Source: Bacteroidales bacterium (lineage in GTDB: Bacteria > Bacteroidota > Bacteroidia > Bacteroidales > UBA932). From it: a stretch of 64,000 nucleotides of DNA. The DNA lies in contig JAFZIO010000042.1 in the NCBI GenBank assembly GCA_017554335.1, forward strand, positions 1 to 64,000, read 5' to 3'. The translations under genes were made by a program, and so were the position numbers. The notes beneath the pieces were generated by a model that saw only the letters and a program-made list of their open reading frames with translations, was not told the origin of the DNA and made no database searches. Position 1 is the first letter of the stretch; each line of letters starts with the position of its first letter. This document shows, piece after piece, positions 43,180-47,906 of this stretch.

Positions 43180-43209
43180 CGTTTAACCTATAGCTTTTCC
43201 CCTCATCGG

Positions 43210-43352
43210 CGCTGCGAAGCGGGACAGTGGGACTGATGCGGCAACCCGTGGCCGCCCGTGGCCACGTGAACGGGAGGGGCCCAGCCGGAGGCTGGGAGGG
43301 ATGAGCGAAGCGAAGGTTCTGCCGCGTCAGCCCCACTGCAAGCGGAGCAGCG
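43210..43352 (+). repeat. Long stem-loop element D1 (candidate structured RNA)
   Basis: This 143-nt G+C-rich element has three nested pairings. The outer clamp is CGCTGC with GCAGCG. The main stem is 43225-43242 with 43321-43338 (16 of 18 Watson-Crick, one G-U). Inner hairpins are 43247-43253 with 43260-43266 and 43280-43286 with 43290-43296. Conserved single-stranded blocks shared with D2 are GGAGGGGCCCA, GGGAGGGATGAGCG and CGAAGGT. It sits in the convergent gap after the MBL gene and contains no open frame of note. Confidence 0.65.
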
Positions 43353-43382
43353 GCGGCGTTGAGCGTTGTGGCTGTTGCGAAG

Positions 43383-43500
43383 TGACTGTGGCACCCCATT
43401 TCGTCACGTCACTGAGGGTTTTGGGCTAAGAACGGCTAAAAACAGCTTGTGACGTGATTGTGAAGACCTCCAGAGTCACGTCGCTGGCCAAAAATGAGAT
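43383..43500 (-). repeat. Two-hairpin REP/BIME-like repeat, copy B
   Basis: On the minus strand it is almost identical to copy C (47422-47542). It has a GACGTGACTCTGGAGGTCTT block, arms around ATCACGTCAC, a GTTTTTAGCCGTTCTTAGCC linker, and a second hairpin ending in CAGTCACTTC. It lies 18 bp from the stop of the transposase-like gene and points out of it. The left flank continues through a shared ~30-bp sequence into D1. Confidence 0.85.
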
Positions 43501-43518
43501 AAAAGAAAGAGTCTATCA

Positions 43519-44493
43519 TCATTTTATGCAGAGGCAGCGGCGCAACTGGTCTTCAGTTACAATCTTTTCGGAGAACAGACTGTCACATTTTCGGTATTGA
43601 ACGCTCTTGCATTCTTTCCAAATAGCATTGCCTAAGTCTGACCGTTTGCGTTCAGGAAGCTGATAGATTGACGATTCACTGCACCCTTTGAAATACTGTG
43701 AAGGCAGGATGATGTCGTCAACAATATGACATAACTCAATATCAGTCATACGGTTTTTATTAATGCGGCCTTGTTCTGAGATAAAGGCTTTAGAAGGATC
43801 AAATGCAGGAACACCTCGTTCAATCAGTTCCAGTGTAATAGCTGGCAGATTGTTTTCTTTCTGTTGATCTGCAATATCTTTTCCATCAGAGATACGGTTC
43901 ATTTGAAAGAGGAAATTGCGTGGAGAGACATAAACACTTTCCACATATGCTGTATCTTCAATGTCTTCCCTGAGTAAAAGGCCATTACTCGCCATACGAT
44001 ACTTCGTTGGAAGCTTAGTGTTAAACGGCAAATAGTTGTGCCGTTTATAGTCTTCGATCAAGACTGGAGCCTGGTCACGTCCAAGGTCTTTGCGGAAGTA
44101 GGAATTTACTGAACTGTGAGGATAACCGAAAGCAGTTGTCGACAATCCATGATGCAGTCCCTGTTTTATTACATAATTCAGCATTGACTGCGTATGGTAA
44201 AGCCCTTCGACATTTAATATGAAGCCCTCCTTCTCTCCAAGCGACCCTTTGCGACCGTACTTTGCATTAAAGTAACGTGTATAGGAATAGCGATGCCGCT
44301 TTGCCAACTCATGTGGATTGCCGGTCCGGGCAGCTTCGTGATGATGGGTAGAAAGGAAGCCGTCTGCAAGCAATGTTGAATCCGTTTCCAATGCTGCCAA
44401 GGCTAAATAATTGAATCCGATAATCAGGTCGCTTTCGTTCCTGAACATTACCTCTTCATGAGATGAGAGGCATAAATGGTAAGTCTCTTTCAT
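43519..44493 (-). CDS. REP-associated tyrosine transposase-like (RAYT, Y1/HUH) protein
   Basis: In this 324-residue protein residues ~1-135 follow the RAYT/IS200-type Y1 domain: N-terminal YHLCLSS and VMFRNESD, then metal motif HHH at 50-52 (the HUH site), RYFNAKYGRKGSLGEKEGF, and catalytic helix Y107-V-I-K-Q111 as Tyr-x3-Gln. GYPHSSVNSYF follows, matching the YPWSS block. Residues ~140-324 are a long C-terminal part with a helix-turn-helix-like end (MTDIELCHIVDDIILPSQYF). The enzyme would cut single-stranded DNA at palindromes. ATG 44493 is chosen because the first ATG at 44556 is upstream of the promoter. Sequence around it is more A+T-rich than neighbours. Confidence 0.75.
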   Translation of the reverse strand: MKETYHLCLSSHEEVMFRNESDLIIGFNYLALAALETDSTLLADGFLSTHHHEAARTGNPHELAKRHRYSYTRYFNAKYGRKGSLGEKEGFILNVEGLYHTQSMLNYVIKQGLHHGLSTTAFGYPHSSVNSYFRKDLGRDQAPVLIEDYKRHNYLPFNTKLPTKYRMASNGLLLREDIEDTAYVESVYVSPRNFLFQMNRISDGKDIADQQKENNLPAITLELIERGVPAFDPSKAFISEQGRINKNRMTDIELCHIVDDIILPSQYFKGCSESSIYQLPERKRSDLGNAIWKECKSVQYRKCDSLFSEKIVTEDQLRRCLCIK

Positions 44494-44534
44494 AGTCTGT
44501 TCCGGTTTATAATAGCACTTTGTGCTTCTTTTTT

Positions 44535-44542
44535 CAAAGATA
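44535..44542 (-). promoter_or_regulatory. -7 box for the RAYT-like gene
   Basis: Minus strand reads TATCTTTG; predicted start near 44530 gives a ~37-nt leader. Confidence 0.5.
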
Positions 44543-44612
44543 GCAAAAACAACCATGATTCGAGACGTATTATCGGAATTATTGCGTTTTTATTATAGAA
44601 TACAATAATTAC

Positions 44613-44620
44613 TATATTTG
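44613..44620 (+). promoter_or_regulatory. -7 box for the ECF sigma operon
   Basis: TATATTTG predicts a start near 44625, 16 nt before the GTG start codon. Confidence 0.55.
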
Positions 44621-44640
44621 ATGAGGCAAGGATAAAGGGA

Positions 44641-45201
44641 GTGTATAGACAACTTAACGAGGAGGAACTGGCCAGATACTGCTCGGAGAGAGACATAATG
44701 GCAGAGGAGGAGCTGTATAGACGATATGCAGCAAAGGTGAATACAATCTGTTGCCGATACACAGACAATGCAGAGGACGCTGAAGATTTGATGCATGAAG
44801 CGATCATCAAGGCGCTGGACAAGATATCCACATACTCTTATAAAGGAAAAGGATCTTTGTCCGTTTGGATTTCCAGAATTGCCATTAATTTGGCCGTAGA
44901 TCAAATCCGCAGAAAGAGATTGCGAATGGTACCGCTGGAGTTCTGGACTCATGATACTGTAGCGGAGCCGACTGAGGATGAAATGGAGTCTATATCGGAA
45001 GATATGCTCTTGGACTTTATAACCAGGCTGCCGGAATTAAGAAGGACCGTCTTCAACCTTTATTGCATTGACGGATACTCTCATAAGCAAATTGCTGAGA
45101 TGCTAGGGATAAGTGAAAAAGGCTCGGCCGGAGTGCTGGCGAAAGCTAGAAAGCAAATTAAAGAAGAAATCCGGCATTATCTGAAAGAACGGGACAAATG
45201 A
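44641..45201 (+). CDS. ECF-type RNA polymerase sigma factor
   Basis: This 186-residue protein has a sigma-70 region 2 (about 15-85; AEDLMHEAIIKALDKISTY, WISRIAINLAVDQIRRKR) and region 4 (about 125-180; LPELRRTVFNLYCIDGYSHK, IAEMLGISEKGSAGVLAKAR). There is no ATG in a suitable place. GTG 44641 gives the conserved N-terminal part, with AAGGGA just before it. The next gene overlaps by 4 bp and encodes a membrane protein with the layout of an anti-sigma factor. Confidence 0.9.
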   Translation: MYRQLNEEELARYCSERDIMAEEELYRRYAAKVNTICCRYTDNAEDAEDLMHEAIIKALDKISTYSYKGKGSLSVWISRIAINLAVDQIRRKRLRMVPLEFWTHDTVAEPTEDEMESISEDMLLDFITRLPELRRTVFNLYCIDGYSHKQIAEMLGISEKGSAGVLAKARKQIKEEIRHYLKERDK

Positions 45202-46355
45202 GGAACTGGGAAGACATACTGAAGAATAAACTGGAGAGGTATGAAAAACCTCTTCAGGAAGGAAGCCTTGCCCGTTTCCAGGCTCGCAGAAATGCTGAAT
45301 CCATCACTCAGAGTTCCAGACGCACTTCAATCCTTTGGGTGGCCGGAGCCGCTGTAGCTGCTATTCTTGCCGCTGTTCTGCTGTTCCGCCAGCCTGTCAG
45401 GTCTGATTTGGGCATACAGATTGACCAGCAGCCTGAGCAAACTGTGGCCTCACTTTCGGATTCAGTCGATACGTATATAACCGGGCAGGAGTCCGCAATG
45501 TTTGCACAAGTAGAAAATGCCAAGAACGATAAGGGAAACTATGATTATCAGCACGATAACCATATAACTACGGAAGATAAGTATACGCCTGAATGCGACA
45601 GGACAGTTGAAGAGTTAGAGAATATTGCCTCGGATACTGTAGCCGAATCCACCACCGAGGTTGCGGCGGAAACTGTTGAAATAGCGGCCGGAACCAACAA
45701 TGAGACTGATGGGATGGCTCCGTCTCCAATTGTCCCTGACATCCCTTATCGTGAACCACTTAATCTGGAAGTCTCGTACGCTGCCGCTGGTGTTGCGGCT
45801 GACGGGGCGGCGGCAGCGCTGGTGGAAGCTGGATTGTTTGCTTTGATTCATAGGGATTATTGCCCTCGAGATAATGGAAGAAGCTATGACCATCATTATC
45901 TGCCATTGAGAACCGGTCTTTCGTTGAGGTTCCCATTATTAAATAACCTGAACATTACAAGCGGTATTAACTACTCATTGTATTTATCCCAATTTCATAA
46001 TGCTTATGATCCCACCAAGTATACGCAGATAGTTCACTACTTAGGCGTTCCTGTGCGCCTGGATGGAACTCTGGCACAAAACCGATGGTTTGACGTCTAC
46101 GTAGGAGGTGGCTTTGAAGCGGACTTTTATATTCATGGTAGAGAGATAGAGGAAGAATGGGGGCCTTACGGCGGTTTGGAGTTGTCATTAATTACCGTGG
46201 GAGGTATTCAGTATAACTTGACAAAAAATCTGGGAGTATATATTGAGCCGGAATTGAACTGGATTGTCTCACGAGTTCATGGACCGTATACATTCCGCAA
46301 GTACCCCCTAAGTCTTTCGGTTTCAACCGGAATAAGGATTAGTTTTAACAGATAA
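45198..46355 (+). CDS. Anti-sigma-like membrane protein fused to an outer-membrane-type barrel
   Basis: This 385-residue protein has a cytoplasmic head of ~42 residues (MRNWEDILKNKLERYEKPLQ), one transmembrane helix (43-63), and a long acidic Thr/Glu-rich linker (~65-190). A short Ala-rich segment precedes a C-terminal ~160-residue beta-barrel-like domain (YLPLRTGLSLRFPLLNNLNI; GGIQYNLTKNLGVYIEPELN; LSVSTGIRISF). The head plausibly binds the upstream sigma factor. Barrel-like domains usually lie in the outer membrane, so one chain may span both membranes. Confidence 0.7.
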   Translation: MRNWEDILKNKLERYEKPLQEGSLARFQARRNAESITQSSRRTSILWVAGAAVAAILAAVLLFRQPVRSDLGIQIDQQPEQTVASLSDSVDTYITGQESAMFAQVENAKNDKGNYDYQHDNHITTEDKYTPECDRTVEELENIASDTVAESTTEVAAETVEIAAGTNNETDGMAPSPIVPDIPYREPLNLEVSYAAAGVAADGAAAALVEAGLFALIHRDYCPRDNGRSYDHHYLPLRTGLSLRFPLLNNLNITSGINYSLYLSQFHNAYDPTKYTQIVHYLGVPVRLDGTLAQNRWFDVYVGGGFEADFYIHGREIEEEWGPYGGLELSLITVGGIQYNLTKNLGVYIEPELNWIVSRVHGPYTFRKYPLSLSVSTGIRISFNR

Positions 46356-46359
46356 TAAC

Positions 46360-46367
46360 TATCTTTG
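46360..46367 (+). promoter_or_regulatory. -7 box for the small OMP gene
   Basis: TATCTTTG lies seven bases before ATG 46375, so the OMP gene can be transcribed separately from the sigma operon. Confidence 0.5.
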
Positions 46368-46374
46368 TATTATT

Positions 46375-46914
46375 ATGAACCATAAGCTTTTAATAACAGC
46401 CTTCATTATTCTGGCGTCTGCTTCTCTATCAGCGCAGAATAAATTTGAAATTGGAGTCAATTATTCACCCCGACAGAACTTAATGAGTGTCGATGACGGT
46501 CCAAATATGTTATACAAATTTGGAGCTTATGGGGAGTATCGTTGGGATTTAAGCAAGCACTTCGTGGCTGGAGCAAGGCTTGACGCCAAAGTTGGACCTC
46601 TTAGCCCTTACCTGATTAATGACGATGCTATCGCCATTTCAGGAGATCTTTTGGCTGTAATTGATTTTAATCTTTTCCCTGGCAAGACTGTCAATCCGTA
46701 TATCGGATTTGGGCTTGGTCCGGGATTCGGCATGGATAATAATACCTTCGACCATCTGTTTGGCGGGACATTCCTGGTCTACGCAGATGCGAGGCTAGGA
46801 ATTGAGCTTTTCCGTCATCTCCGGCTTTCAGTCGATTACAGCCTGCCATATTGGCGCGGCAGTTTTCCTGCAATATTCACTACTCTTAACGCAAACATCG
46901 GCTGGGTCTTTTAG
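46375..46914 (+). CDS. Small outer-membrane beta-barrel protein
   Basis: This 179-residue protein has a signal peptide (MNHKLLITAFIILASASLSA). The mature chain has alternating strands (KFEIGVNYSPRQNLMS, FGAYGEYRWDLSKHFVAGAR, VNPYIGFGLGPGFGMD, LRLSVDYSLPYWRG) and ends in Phe (NANIGWVF). Size fits an eight-strand barrel of the OmpA/OprF-like type without a periplasmic domain. Its strand pattern is similar to the barrel part of the preceding fusion protein, so the two may be related or interact. It has its own promoter box. Confidence 0.7.
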   Translation: MNHKLLITAFIILASASLSAQNKFEIGVNYSPRQNLMSVDDGPNMLYKFGAYGEYRWDLSKHFVAGARLDAKVGPLSPYLINDDAIAISGDLLAVIDFNLFPGKTVNPYIGFGLGPGFGMDNNTFDHLFGGTFLVYADARLGIELFRHLRLSVDYSLPYWRGSFPAIFTTLNANIGWVF

Positions 46915-46942
46915 CTAGAGAAGAACATCTTTATTAATAGAT

Positions 46943-47413
46943 ATGAAGAAACTCGTACTCGTAGCAGTTTTACTTAGCTTATGTGCCTGTACTGTCGATA
47001 TAGACTGGTATTATTTCGGCTATGCTGAAATAAAGAACAATACCTCGCAGACCCTGACTATTTCCGTATCGGTAGATCCCGCTTCGCCGTATTACCTTCA
47101 TTACTATCTTCTGACTACCAGCCCGTTGGATGGAGTCGTCAAATCAAAAGATTGTTTCACTCAGTATTATTGGGAACCAGCTAGAGAATCTATTAAGGTT
47201 GGTGACGTTCCCACAATCGTCTCAATAACCATTGACGACGGCTCGGAGATTGTCTGCACATCAAGCTCGGAGGCCAGCTGGTCAAGACACTTTTTCGATT
47301 CATACACGACCCGCAATAAGGTAGAATGGGTCTATTTCCAGAAGCATGAGATTGTCATCGAAAACTACGCTATCGATGATGAGTTGATCTCCCTCTGGCG
47401 ACAAGATCACTGA
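46943..47413 (+). CDS. Small lipoprotein of unknown function
   Basis: This 156-residue protein starts MKKLVLVAVLLSLCACTVDI, a lipoprotein signal. The mature part is beta-rich (YFGYAEIKNNTSQTLTISVS; VPTIVSITIDDGSEIVCTSS; KVEWVYFQKHEIVIENYAI) with no recognised catalytic motif. It looks like the small immunoglobulin-like lipoproteins that accompany Bacteroidetes sigma operons. It ends 8 bp before repeat copy C and is the last gene of the A+T-richer block. Confidence 0.55.
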   Translation: MKKLVLVAVLLSLCACTVDIDWYYFGYAEIKNNTSQTLTISVSVDPASPYYLHYYLLTTSPLDGVVKSKDCFTQYYWEPARESIKVGDVPTIVSITIDDGSEIVCTSSSEASWSRHFFDSYTTRNKVEWVYFQKHEIVIENYAIDDELISLWRQDH

Positions 47414-47421
47414 CGATTTAT

Positions 47422-47542
47422 TCTCATTTTTGGCCAGTGACGTGACTCTGGAGGTCTTCAGAATCACGTCACAAGCTGTTTTTAGCCGTTCTTAGCCCAA
47501 AACCCTCAGCGAAGTGACGAAATGGGGTGCCACAGTCACTTC
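47422..47542 (+). repeat. Two-hairpin REP/BIME-like repeat, copy C
   Basis: Hairpin 1 spans 47437-47472: arms GTGACGTGA and TCACGTCAC plus a second 5-bp helix around a 6-nt loop. Hairpin 2 has arms GAAGTGAC and GTCACTTC around GAAATGGGGTGCCACA. It is inverted relative to copy B, so the two bound the block 43.5-47.4 kb. Similarity to copy B continues through ACAGCCACGACGCTCAACGC to about 47575. Confidence 0.85.
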
Positions 47543-47587
47543 ACTACAGCCACGACGCTCAACGCCGCCGCTACTGCGTTCGCTACA

Positions 47588-47733
47588 CAGGCATTTCAGT
47601 CCCGGGGCGCCTTCCCACTAACGCGGGCCCCTATCAGGGAGTCTGAGGGGAACGCCCCTCAGTCCCTTGGGGGTGCAGGGGGATAATAGCTGGCTGCGGC
47701 AGCAGCCAAAGGCCCCGGGACCAAAAACGCCTG
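47588..47733. repeat. Long stem-loop element E next to copy C
   Basis: The outer stem joins CAGGC with GCCTG and GTCCCGGGGC (47599-47608) with GCCCCGGGAC (47712-47721). Inside are two perfect hairpins: CTGAGGGG-AACG-CCCCTCAG and GGCTGC-GGCA-GCAGCC. It occupies the same place relative to copy C as D1 does relative to copy B, but its interior is unrelated to D1. Confidence 0.55.
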
Positions 47734-47756
47734 CTTCCGCTCACTCGTCGCAGCGG

Positions 47757-47906
47757 CGCTGCGAAGCGAGACAGTGCTCTGGGAGCGGCGACCCGTGTCC
47801 ACCCTCGGACACGTTAGAGGGAGGGGCCCACGAGCGTAGCGAAGTGGGAGGGATGAGCGCGTAGCGCGAAGGTCTGCCGCCCCAGAGCACTGCAAGCGAA
47901 GCAGCG
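47757..47906 (+). repeat. Long stem-loop element D2 (candidate structured RNA)
   Basis: This 150-nt homologue of D1 is in the same orientation. The clamp is CGCTGC with GCAGCG. The main stem is 47772-47789 with 47876-47892 (one bulged A). Hairpins are 47794-47800 with 47807-47813 and 47827-47831 with 47844-47848. Stem sequences differ from D1 but pairing is kept. It lies after the GDPD gene in a convergent gap. The remaining bases to 47985 show nothing recognisable. Confidence 0.65.

Follow-up and report, generated by a model that had tools for sequence, protein, structure and literature searches.

Two structured elements of a Bacteroidales contig belong to a large dispersed family of folded, apparently mobile DNA repeats

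What are the two structured elements, D1 (~43210-43352) and D2 (~47757-47906), in a 64,000-nucleotide stretch of a Bacteroidales genome (GCA_017554335.1, contig JAFZIO010000042.1, positions 1 to 64,000; hereafter the window)? A sequence-only reading had noticed that they share nested helices while much of the stem sequence differs, had seen in this a sign of selection on structure, in RNA or in extruded single-stranded DNA, and had suggested a covariance model and a search of Bacteroidetes genomes. This search was carried out and uncovered a dispersed family, so that D1 and D2 can be assigned to a large group of folded DNA repeats that is apparently mobile. Its members combine a conserved pseudoknotted core with inverted arms that are largely copy-specific, and its many dispersed copies are found both between genes and, in frame, within them. 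On balance, we lean towards a non-autonomous palindromic mobile repeat of ~110-160 bp, similar to REPINs (hairpin-forming doublets of repetitive extragenic palindromes, REPs) or to Rickettsia palindromic elements (RPEs), presumably spread by Y1 transposases.

The stems and kept blocks quoted in the earlier reading were all found in the sequence as described, and D1 and D2 are two copies of one element. A repeat search pairs 43204-43283 with 47751-47830 at 78% identity. The kept block GGGAGGGATGAGCG is exact at 43294 and 47846, and with up to two mismatches has 3 matches in the window versus 0.71 expected (3 of 100 shuffles reach 3). The block GGGAGGGGCCCA is also exact in both elements; with up to two mismatches, it is not enriched in the window (6 matches versus 8.04 expected). 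D1 and D2 each lie between convergent open reading frames (ORFs).

In the genome of origin (2.35 Mb in 75 contigs, 88% complete), a DNA search gave 46 matches at E ≤ 1, and the 14-mer GGGAGGGATGAGCG with at most one mismatch gave 29 copies versus 0 for the reversed control. Of these 29, 26 went into covariance model R1 (L034, L048 and L058 were excluded for their inserts), which found at least 38 copies among the best 39 candidates scored, the scope of all per-genome copy counts given here. In the genus, copies were present in 104 of 121 genomes (E ≤ 0.001), and copy number ranged from 0 to at least 38. At E ≤ 1e-6, 61 of 199 genomes of the family had matches, spread over 11 of its 25 sampled genera. 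At E ≤ 1e-5, matches came from 5 of 247 genomes searched in the order, three of them from other families, and from 1 of 296 in the phylum, namely the genome of origin only; the wide searches used stricter filters, so that weak copies were missed. The relatives found through AtpG (see below) are metagenome-assembled genomes (MAGs) of rumen, horse and other gut Bacteroidales, including Candidatus Cryptobacteroides choladohippi and equifaecalis.

Folded as a single RNA strand, the inner unit of D1 (43225-43338, + strand) reaches -63.3 kcal/mol (z -4.1) and that of D2 (47772-47892, + strand) -67.7 (z -5.65), and none of 200 shuffles was as good in either case; folded as DNA, D1 reaches -34 kcal/mol (z -4.1). 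R1 scores 93.1 bits in D1 (43243-43317) and 82.7 bits in D2 (47790-47873). From the outside to the inside of D1, all on the + strand, the left arm P1 (CAGTGGGACTGATGCGGCAACC, 43225-43246) is followed by hairpin P2 (CGTGGCC/GGCCACG, 43247-43266), the 3' strand of P3 (ACGGG, 43270-43274), AGGGG, hairpin P4 (CCCAGCC/GGCTGGG, 43280-43296), then the conserved AGGGATGA, the small hairpin P5 (GCG..GC) and GAA (together 43297-43314), and finally the right arm P1' (GGTTCTGCCGCGTCAGCCCCACTG, 43315-43338), which pairs with the left one. P3 is an H-type pseudoknot, in which a strand of the P2 loop (CCCGT, 43255-43259, in D1) pairs with the strand that begins three bases beyond P2. Weaker complementarity reaches outward over ~43207-43356. 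D2 represents a second subtype, with CGTGTCC/GGACACG as P2, CCCTC/GAGGG as the pseudoknot, CCCAC/GTGGG as P4 and GCGC GTA GCGC as P5, a hairpin that is missing in some relatives. On either side of P4, at 43275-43301, GGGAGGGG and GGGAGGGA might, judging by their letters, form a G-quadruplex that could compete with the pseudoknot and P4.

Two copies are insufficient to prove covariation, and larger alignments were therefore used, one of 26 copies from the genome of origin (A2) and one of 60 matches from other genomes (A3, 56 distinct rows). In A2, 96.1% of cells were paired (100% for P3), and the covariation score was 0.342 compared with 0.113 after shuffling. In A3, 97.0% were paired (99.3% for P3), 17 of 24 pairs showed changes on both sides (5 of 7 in P4), P2 also covaried, and the score was 0.452, compared with 0.147 for shuffles; with the partners slid along, it did not exceed 0.074. 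A3 was fitted to the nested helices with P3 absent from the model, so that P3 pairing stands outside the fit; its variants include CCCGT/ACGGG, CCCTC/GAGGG, CCCAT/ATGGG and CCCGC/GCGGG. Pairing was not uniform, as the two innermost pairs of P4 were broken in 10 of 26 own copies and the third pair of P2 in 24 of the 56 distinct A3 rows. Selection on structure, as proposed from the two copies, is thus borne out with the pseudoknot included, and the covariation whose absence from a larger alignment was to speak against it is present in both. The structure is real; the pseudoknot, the variable fourth hairpin, and the genome-wide and intragenic copies had escaped the earlier reading. Two copies, L048 and L058, have a common extra hairpin segment of ~45 nt in the P4 loop and may form a subfamily.

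That no named RNA family fits also held in Rfam scans of the window and further loci. At the gathering threshold, only tRNAs were found in the window, and at E ≤ 10, D1 overlapped a weak snoRNA match on the antisense strand and MIMT1_1, the latter with 14.1 bits against a gathering cutoff of 45 (E 1.2); seven further loci gave no match at the element. The hammerhead core is CUGAUGA...GAAA, and a hammerhead reading of GATGA-hairpin-GAA was rejected, as GG replaces CU in 26 of 26 rows and the block is lost in relatives, L137 and L142 among them. A likeness to the pistol ribozyme, in which a hairpin loop engages in a pseudoknot, was dropped, with nothing similar in the Rfam scans.

Many copies are located inside genes. 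Among 36 own copies examined, 23 lie within a stop-free spanning ORF and 13 between ORFs, including one (L057) that on closer look is in frame near a gene start. Pfam was run on twenty of the spanning ORFs (and NCBIfam on ten of these), and 17 matched a family. These 17 genes, matched by hidden Markov models, contain 18 copies, all in frame, and encode PrmC, Fmt, AroB (two copies), FolC, TrmB, TilS, AtpG, a SpoU rRNA methylase, ThiL, HemW, DnaX, a UvrD-type helicase, UvrA, UDP-glucose dehydrogenase, a THUMP-like protein, PolA and a penicillin-binding protein. L038, L048 and L055, in long ORFs that matched no Pfam family, are outside this count, as are L054 and L058. No copy was noticed to interrupt a recognisable gene out of frame, genic copies being recognised via their open frame. 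Four of the 18 are in sense and 14 in antisense orientation, a ratio not far from the prediction based on the open frames of the core (on average 1.18 in sense versus 2.41 in antisense). In the face of a mobile-type repeat family that is present in frame in coding genes, which the earlier reading had overlooked when it left the choice between RNA and extruded DNA undecided, the structure reads better as a folded mobile-element intermediate than as a cis-regulatory RNA.

In three lineages (L045, L144, L168), one and the same AtpG loop carries the element; in additional species it holds different repeat-like inserts. Among 80 related MAGs (L143-L222), this loop, located before an SSNSS motif, varies greatly in length and contains different repeat-like inserts, with AtpG ORFs of 270 (truncated contig) to 404 residues. 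In UvrA (L059), the element is adjoined by a second translated repeat, CHPERSEGS, which we take to be a peptide of repeats in other bacteria. The aroB gene contains two tandem elements (L034/L056), one of them with a nested insert in P2.

Copy sites turn over between related species. In the nearest relative met (G027), flanks are mostly 80-92% identical, and 18 of 34 distinct own copies queried have a flank of at least 200 nt in the 1.16 Mb compared. A copy is also present in G027 at 12 of the 18 sites, and none was found nearby at 6, of which thiL and atpG hold a different insert, L057 is cleanly empty, and L015, L017 and L024 have no contiguous flank pair there by which they could be judged. 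At L057, G027 reads ATG AGA AAC TTG CTT, and the genome of origin has ~52 additional in-frame codons after ATG AGA, inside the signal peptide; the empty state is presumably the older one. The folC insertion is common to the genome of origin and G027, and G023 is empty there. Of 11 sites filled in both genomes, with aroB taken as one and the right flank used to judge D2, 5 have the core in opposite orientation. The whole two-element block of aroB and the L050 core are inverted between clearly homologous arms, and in prmC, fmt and dnaX the arms are so unlike each other that inversion and replacement cannot be distinguished. D1 occupies the same position in G027, with 95% identity.

In most copies, the self-complementary arms of 20-40 nt are specific to the copy; they differ widely beyond the last three pairs, apart from some subfamilies with related arms (the D1-like group; L033, L042, L044 and L045). 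In three sets, the own right arm was the best partner of the left arm in 23 of 26, 48 of 57 and 25 of 28 copies. Complementarity exceeded the 99th percentile of mismatched arms over the first 25 nt in 80 of 108 copies, at 25-50 nt in 38 and at 40-80 nt in 2, fading beyond ~40-50 nt (5 to 8 of the 116 matches, with short flanks or duplicated, were left out of the arm tests). Transition mismatches within 25 nt were G.T in 63 and A.C in 23 cases; in the inner 20 nt, with similar arms collapsed to 70, the ratio was 43 to 18 (p 0.002), and beyond 20 nt there was no such bias. The excess of G.T over A.C in the inner arm thus indicates selection there for a folded top strand. G.T is better tolerated than A.C in RNA and in single-stranded DNA alike, and strand bias alone therefore cannot choose between them.

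A possible alternative, which we entertain tentatively, is that the arms are kept and extended by quasi-palindrome correction, a form of template switching in DNA, in which case the arm fold would not be under selection and only the core would be of importance. Arms that are diverse between copies yet complementary, the inversions of the aroB block and the L050 core relative to G027, and outer arms without strand bias would all be expected from such a process, and the part of PMC6649704 consulted here provides a precedent by proposing a quasi-palindrome mechanism for the coding palindromes of hairworm mitochondria. Symmetric correction would not, however, yield the excess of G.T over A.C in the inner 20 nt. 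Two other ideas about arm origin were considered. Arms as inverted target duplications, at first likely in folC, are no more than a possible source, as the outer bases there could be ancestral on either side; arms without core as pre-existing landing palindromes were sought in G027, where most of seven places inspected were other repeats and one (L258) was a diverged copy with its own arms.

How might a palindromic mobile repeat of this kind be mobilised? Beside D1, on the - strand (43522-44556), lies the ORF of a Y1 HUH transposase of the RAYT (REP-associated tyrosine transposase) type, a possible mobiliser. Its YVIKQGLHH fits the Y---Q--HH signature, the HUH fold with HxH pair and conserved tyrosine is present, and the fold matches 4er8. 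The fold search decided this assignment, as sequence searches were weak: Pfam and NCBIfam gave no family for this ORF, a PDB sequence search nothing relevant, and 2 of 22 members of its family matched Y1_Tnp weakly (best E 0.00064). Across the 121 genus genomes, the median was 12 copies with and 3 without a RAYT-like gene, and in a regression after completeness and size, t was 4.7 for RAYT-like genes, 3.2 for PF01797 and -0.04 for RVT_1. Copy number thus tracks Y1 transposases of the RAYT type, whereas it shows no such link to reverse transcriptases; this points to folded single-stranded DNA as the probable form in which the element is mobilised. At 29 RAYT loci, the model found 4 copies (E ≤ 0.0007), each at most ~330 nt 3' of the gene; a fifth match (E 0.09) resembles another repeat. 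Other RAYT loci also have clade-specific repeats, and palindromes that differ in sequence lie in pairs 3' of the genes there. In the window, a 167-nt inverted repeat (43338-43504/47417-47583, 92%) lies directly 3' of the RAYT-like gene, has 17 dispersed matches in the genome of origin, and is probably the transposase's own REPIN.

A retroelement similar to short interspersed nuclear elements, with a pseudoknotted transcript that is reverse-transcribed and inserted by a reverse transcriptase in trans, is improbable: a covarying pseudoknot and a strand whose folding tolerates G.T would suit RNA, but RVT_1 is present in only 37 of the 121 genus genomes, was not found in the genome of origin (88% complete), and its presence is unrelated to copy number. 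We give a similarly low chance to a functional structured RNA (a small RNA, an untranslated-region or a 3'-end element) that happens to be repeated, with the intragenic copies as by-products. The location of D1 and D2 between convergent ORFs, the conservation of D1 in place in G027 and the strong covariation would agree with this, whereas the 18 copies in coding sequence (14 of them antisense to the gene), the range of copy number in the genus and the turnover of sites between related species argue against it. Finally, it is very improbable that stable structured inserts in essential genes are excised from the mRNA (intron-like or by translational bypass) and never translated, as the 18 copies, recognised by their open frame, keep a frame that excision would not require, and the antisense share is near the prediction from the open frames of the core.

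For the palindromic mobile repeat, spread would then proceed as follows. The top strand, exposed as single strand (for example on the lagging-strand template), would fold into the pseudoknotted hairpin, and a RAYT-type Y1 HUH transposase would recognise it in trans, similar to the presumed RAYT-driven spread of REP and REPIN sequences. Insertions into genes would survive only where length and frame stay open, resulting in an extra translated loop. The arms would persist as inverted repeats; these could flip the core, or hairpin templating could rewrite them. It is conceivable, but doubtful, that this amounts to a new class of mobile nucleic acid, pseudoknotted, strand-specific, with copy-specific arms, Y1-spread through gut Bacteroidales genomes, and routinely written into essential proteins as loops; single-strand transposition would in that case keep supplying protein insertions in a widespread group of uncultured gut bacteria.

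Several points weigh against a Y1-spread mobile repeat. Transposition itself was not observed in the genome comparisons, and no target-site duplication was seen at L057, the sole clean pair of filled and empty sites. Recognition of in-gene copies by their open frame favours in-frame cases, disrupted genes being harder to see. In the core helices (two partial rows, L075:919 and L083:1610, left out), G.T outnumbers A.C by 33 to 7, with 27 of the 33 from one column pair, so that the strand argument comes down to the arm test. The association between copy number and transposases is uncorrected for phylogeny, uses counts limited to the best 39 candidates per genome, and is borderline for RAYT-like genes in genomes of at least 90% completeness (p 0.051); the high-copy genomes G016 (98% complete), G058 and G089 have neither a RAYT-like hit nor PF01797. 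Proximity to RAYT genes may be due in part to both favouring 3' intergenic sites, and the 167-nt repeat that flanks the RAYT gene looks more like its own REP than D1 does.

The element can be compared with several known systems. RPEs and Wolbachia palindromic elements are described, in the parts of PMC2229807, PMC10969869 and PMC3767692 consulted, as 100-150 bp long, present in many copies, both intergenic and in frame in conserved genes, with several families per genome and an unproven mobiliser. By these described features alone, our element is similar, as a dispersed palindrome of ~100-150 bp in frame in protein genes; it differs by its phylum, its GC-richness, its covarying pseudoknotted core, and arms whose sequence differs between most copies. 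With REPs and REPINs it shares hairpin repeats, a copy number that tracks Y1 transposase genes and a RAYT-type gene beside D1, and the sections of PMC6006769 consulted report atypical secondary structures flanking Bacteroidetes genes of subclass 2.6. Unlike REPs and REPINs, it is much longer, pseudoknotted and found in coding sequence, and the adjacent RAYT gene has another flanking repeat. It is not a short simple REP hairpin (21-65 nt), as the core has ~75-85 nt, several hairpins, a pseudoknot and outer arms, and no guide of the GTAG/GTGG type was noticed by eye in the aligned core, the outer foot being unaligned as arms vary. The window ORF resembles TnpA-like subclass 1.2 of IS200/IS605, with YVIKQGLHH, a long C-terminal region, low copy number and occurrence in Bacteroidetes. 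According to the same portions of PMC6006769, this subclass has the signature Y---Q--HH and generally lacks typical terminal structures; in contrast, structured repeats were located just 3' of all six such genes inspected here. YPAL, which targets sites in or near dyad symmetry (PMC2229807, in part), RU-2 and other bacterial miniature inverted-repeat transposable elements are likewise small, structured and non-autonomous. Unlike a classical element of this type, ours has no family-wide terminal inverted repeat, since arms differ between most copies (some subfamilies alike), and, unlike most, it is not A+T-rich and had no target-site duplication at the one clean site.

In its behaviour the element resembles RPEs and REPINs, but it is assigned to neither, and the simple REP hairpin is absent. 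No report of such elements in Bacteroidales, and neither the fold nor the breadth of coding insertion, was found in print in the literature searched, which lacked most subscription journals and all preprints. Discussion of in-frame palindromes, ongoing since 2000, has centred on Rickettsia and Wolbachia, where the mobiliser is unproven, and a 2024 review, as far as consulted, considers a similar process in other prokaryotes conceivable (PMC10969869). Gut Bacteroidales apparently have a large system separate from that of Rickettsia and Wolbachia, whose fold is defined and which is linked statistically to an enzyme class that can be tested; numerous pairs of related species allow insertion, inversion and decay to be followed inside essential genes. 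Annotators should be aware that unusual protein loops in this genus may be repeat-derived.

Two further observations concern the surroundings of D1 and D2. A 4.1-kb block (43319-47414), with the RAYT gene, a sigma factor, outer membrane proteins and a lipoprotein-like ORF, is inverted in G027, with D1 unmoved. Beside D2, a second structured repeat (47594-47730; ..GGGGAACGCCCC..TTGGGGGTGCAGGGGGATAAT) has 18 matches in the genome of origin, and similar sequence is found inside a penicillin-binding protein gene (L022) and in P4 of the G027 folC copy.

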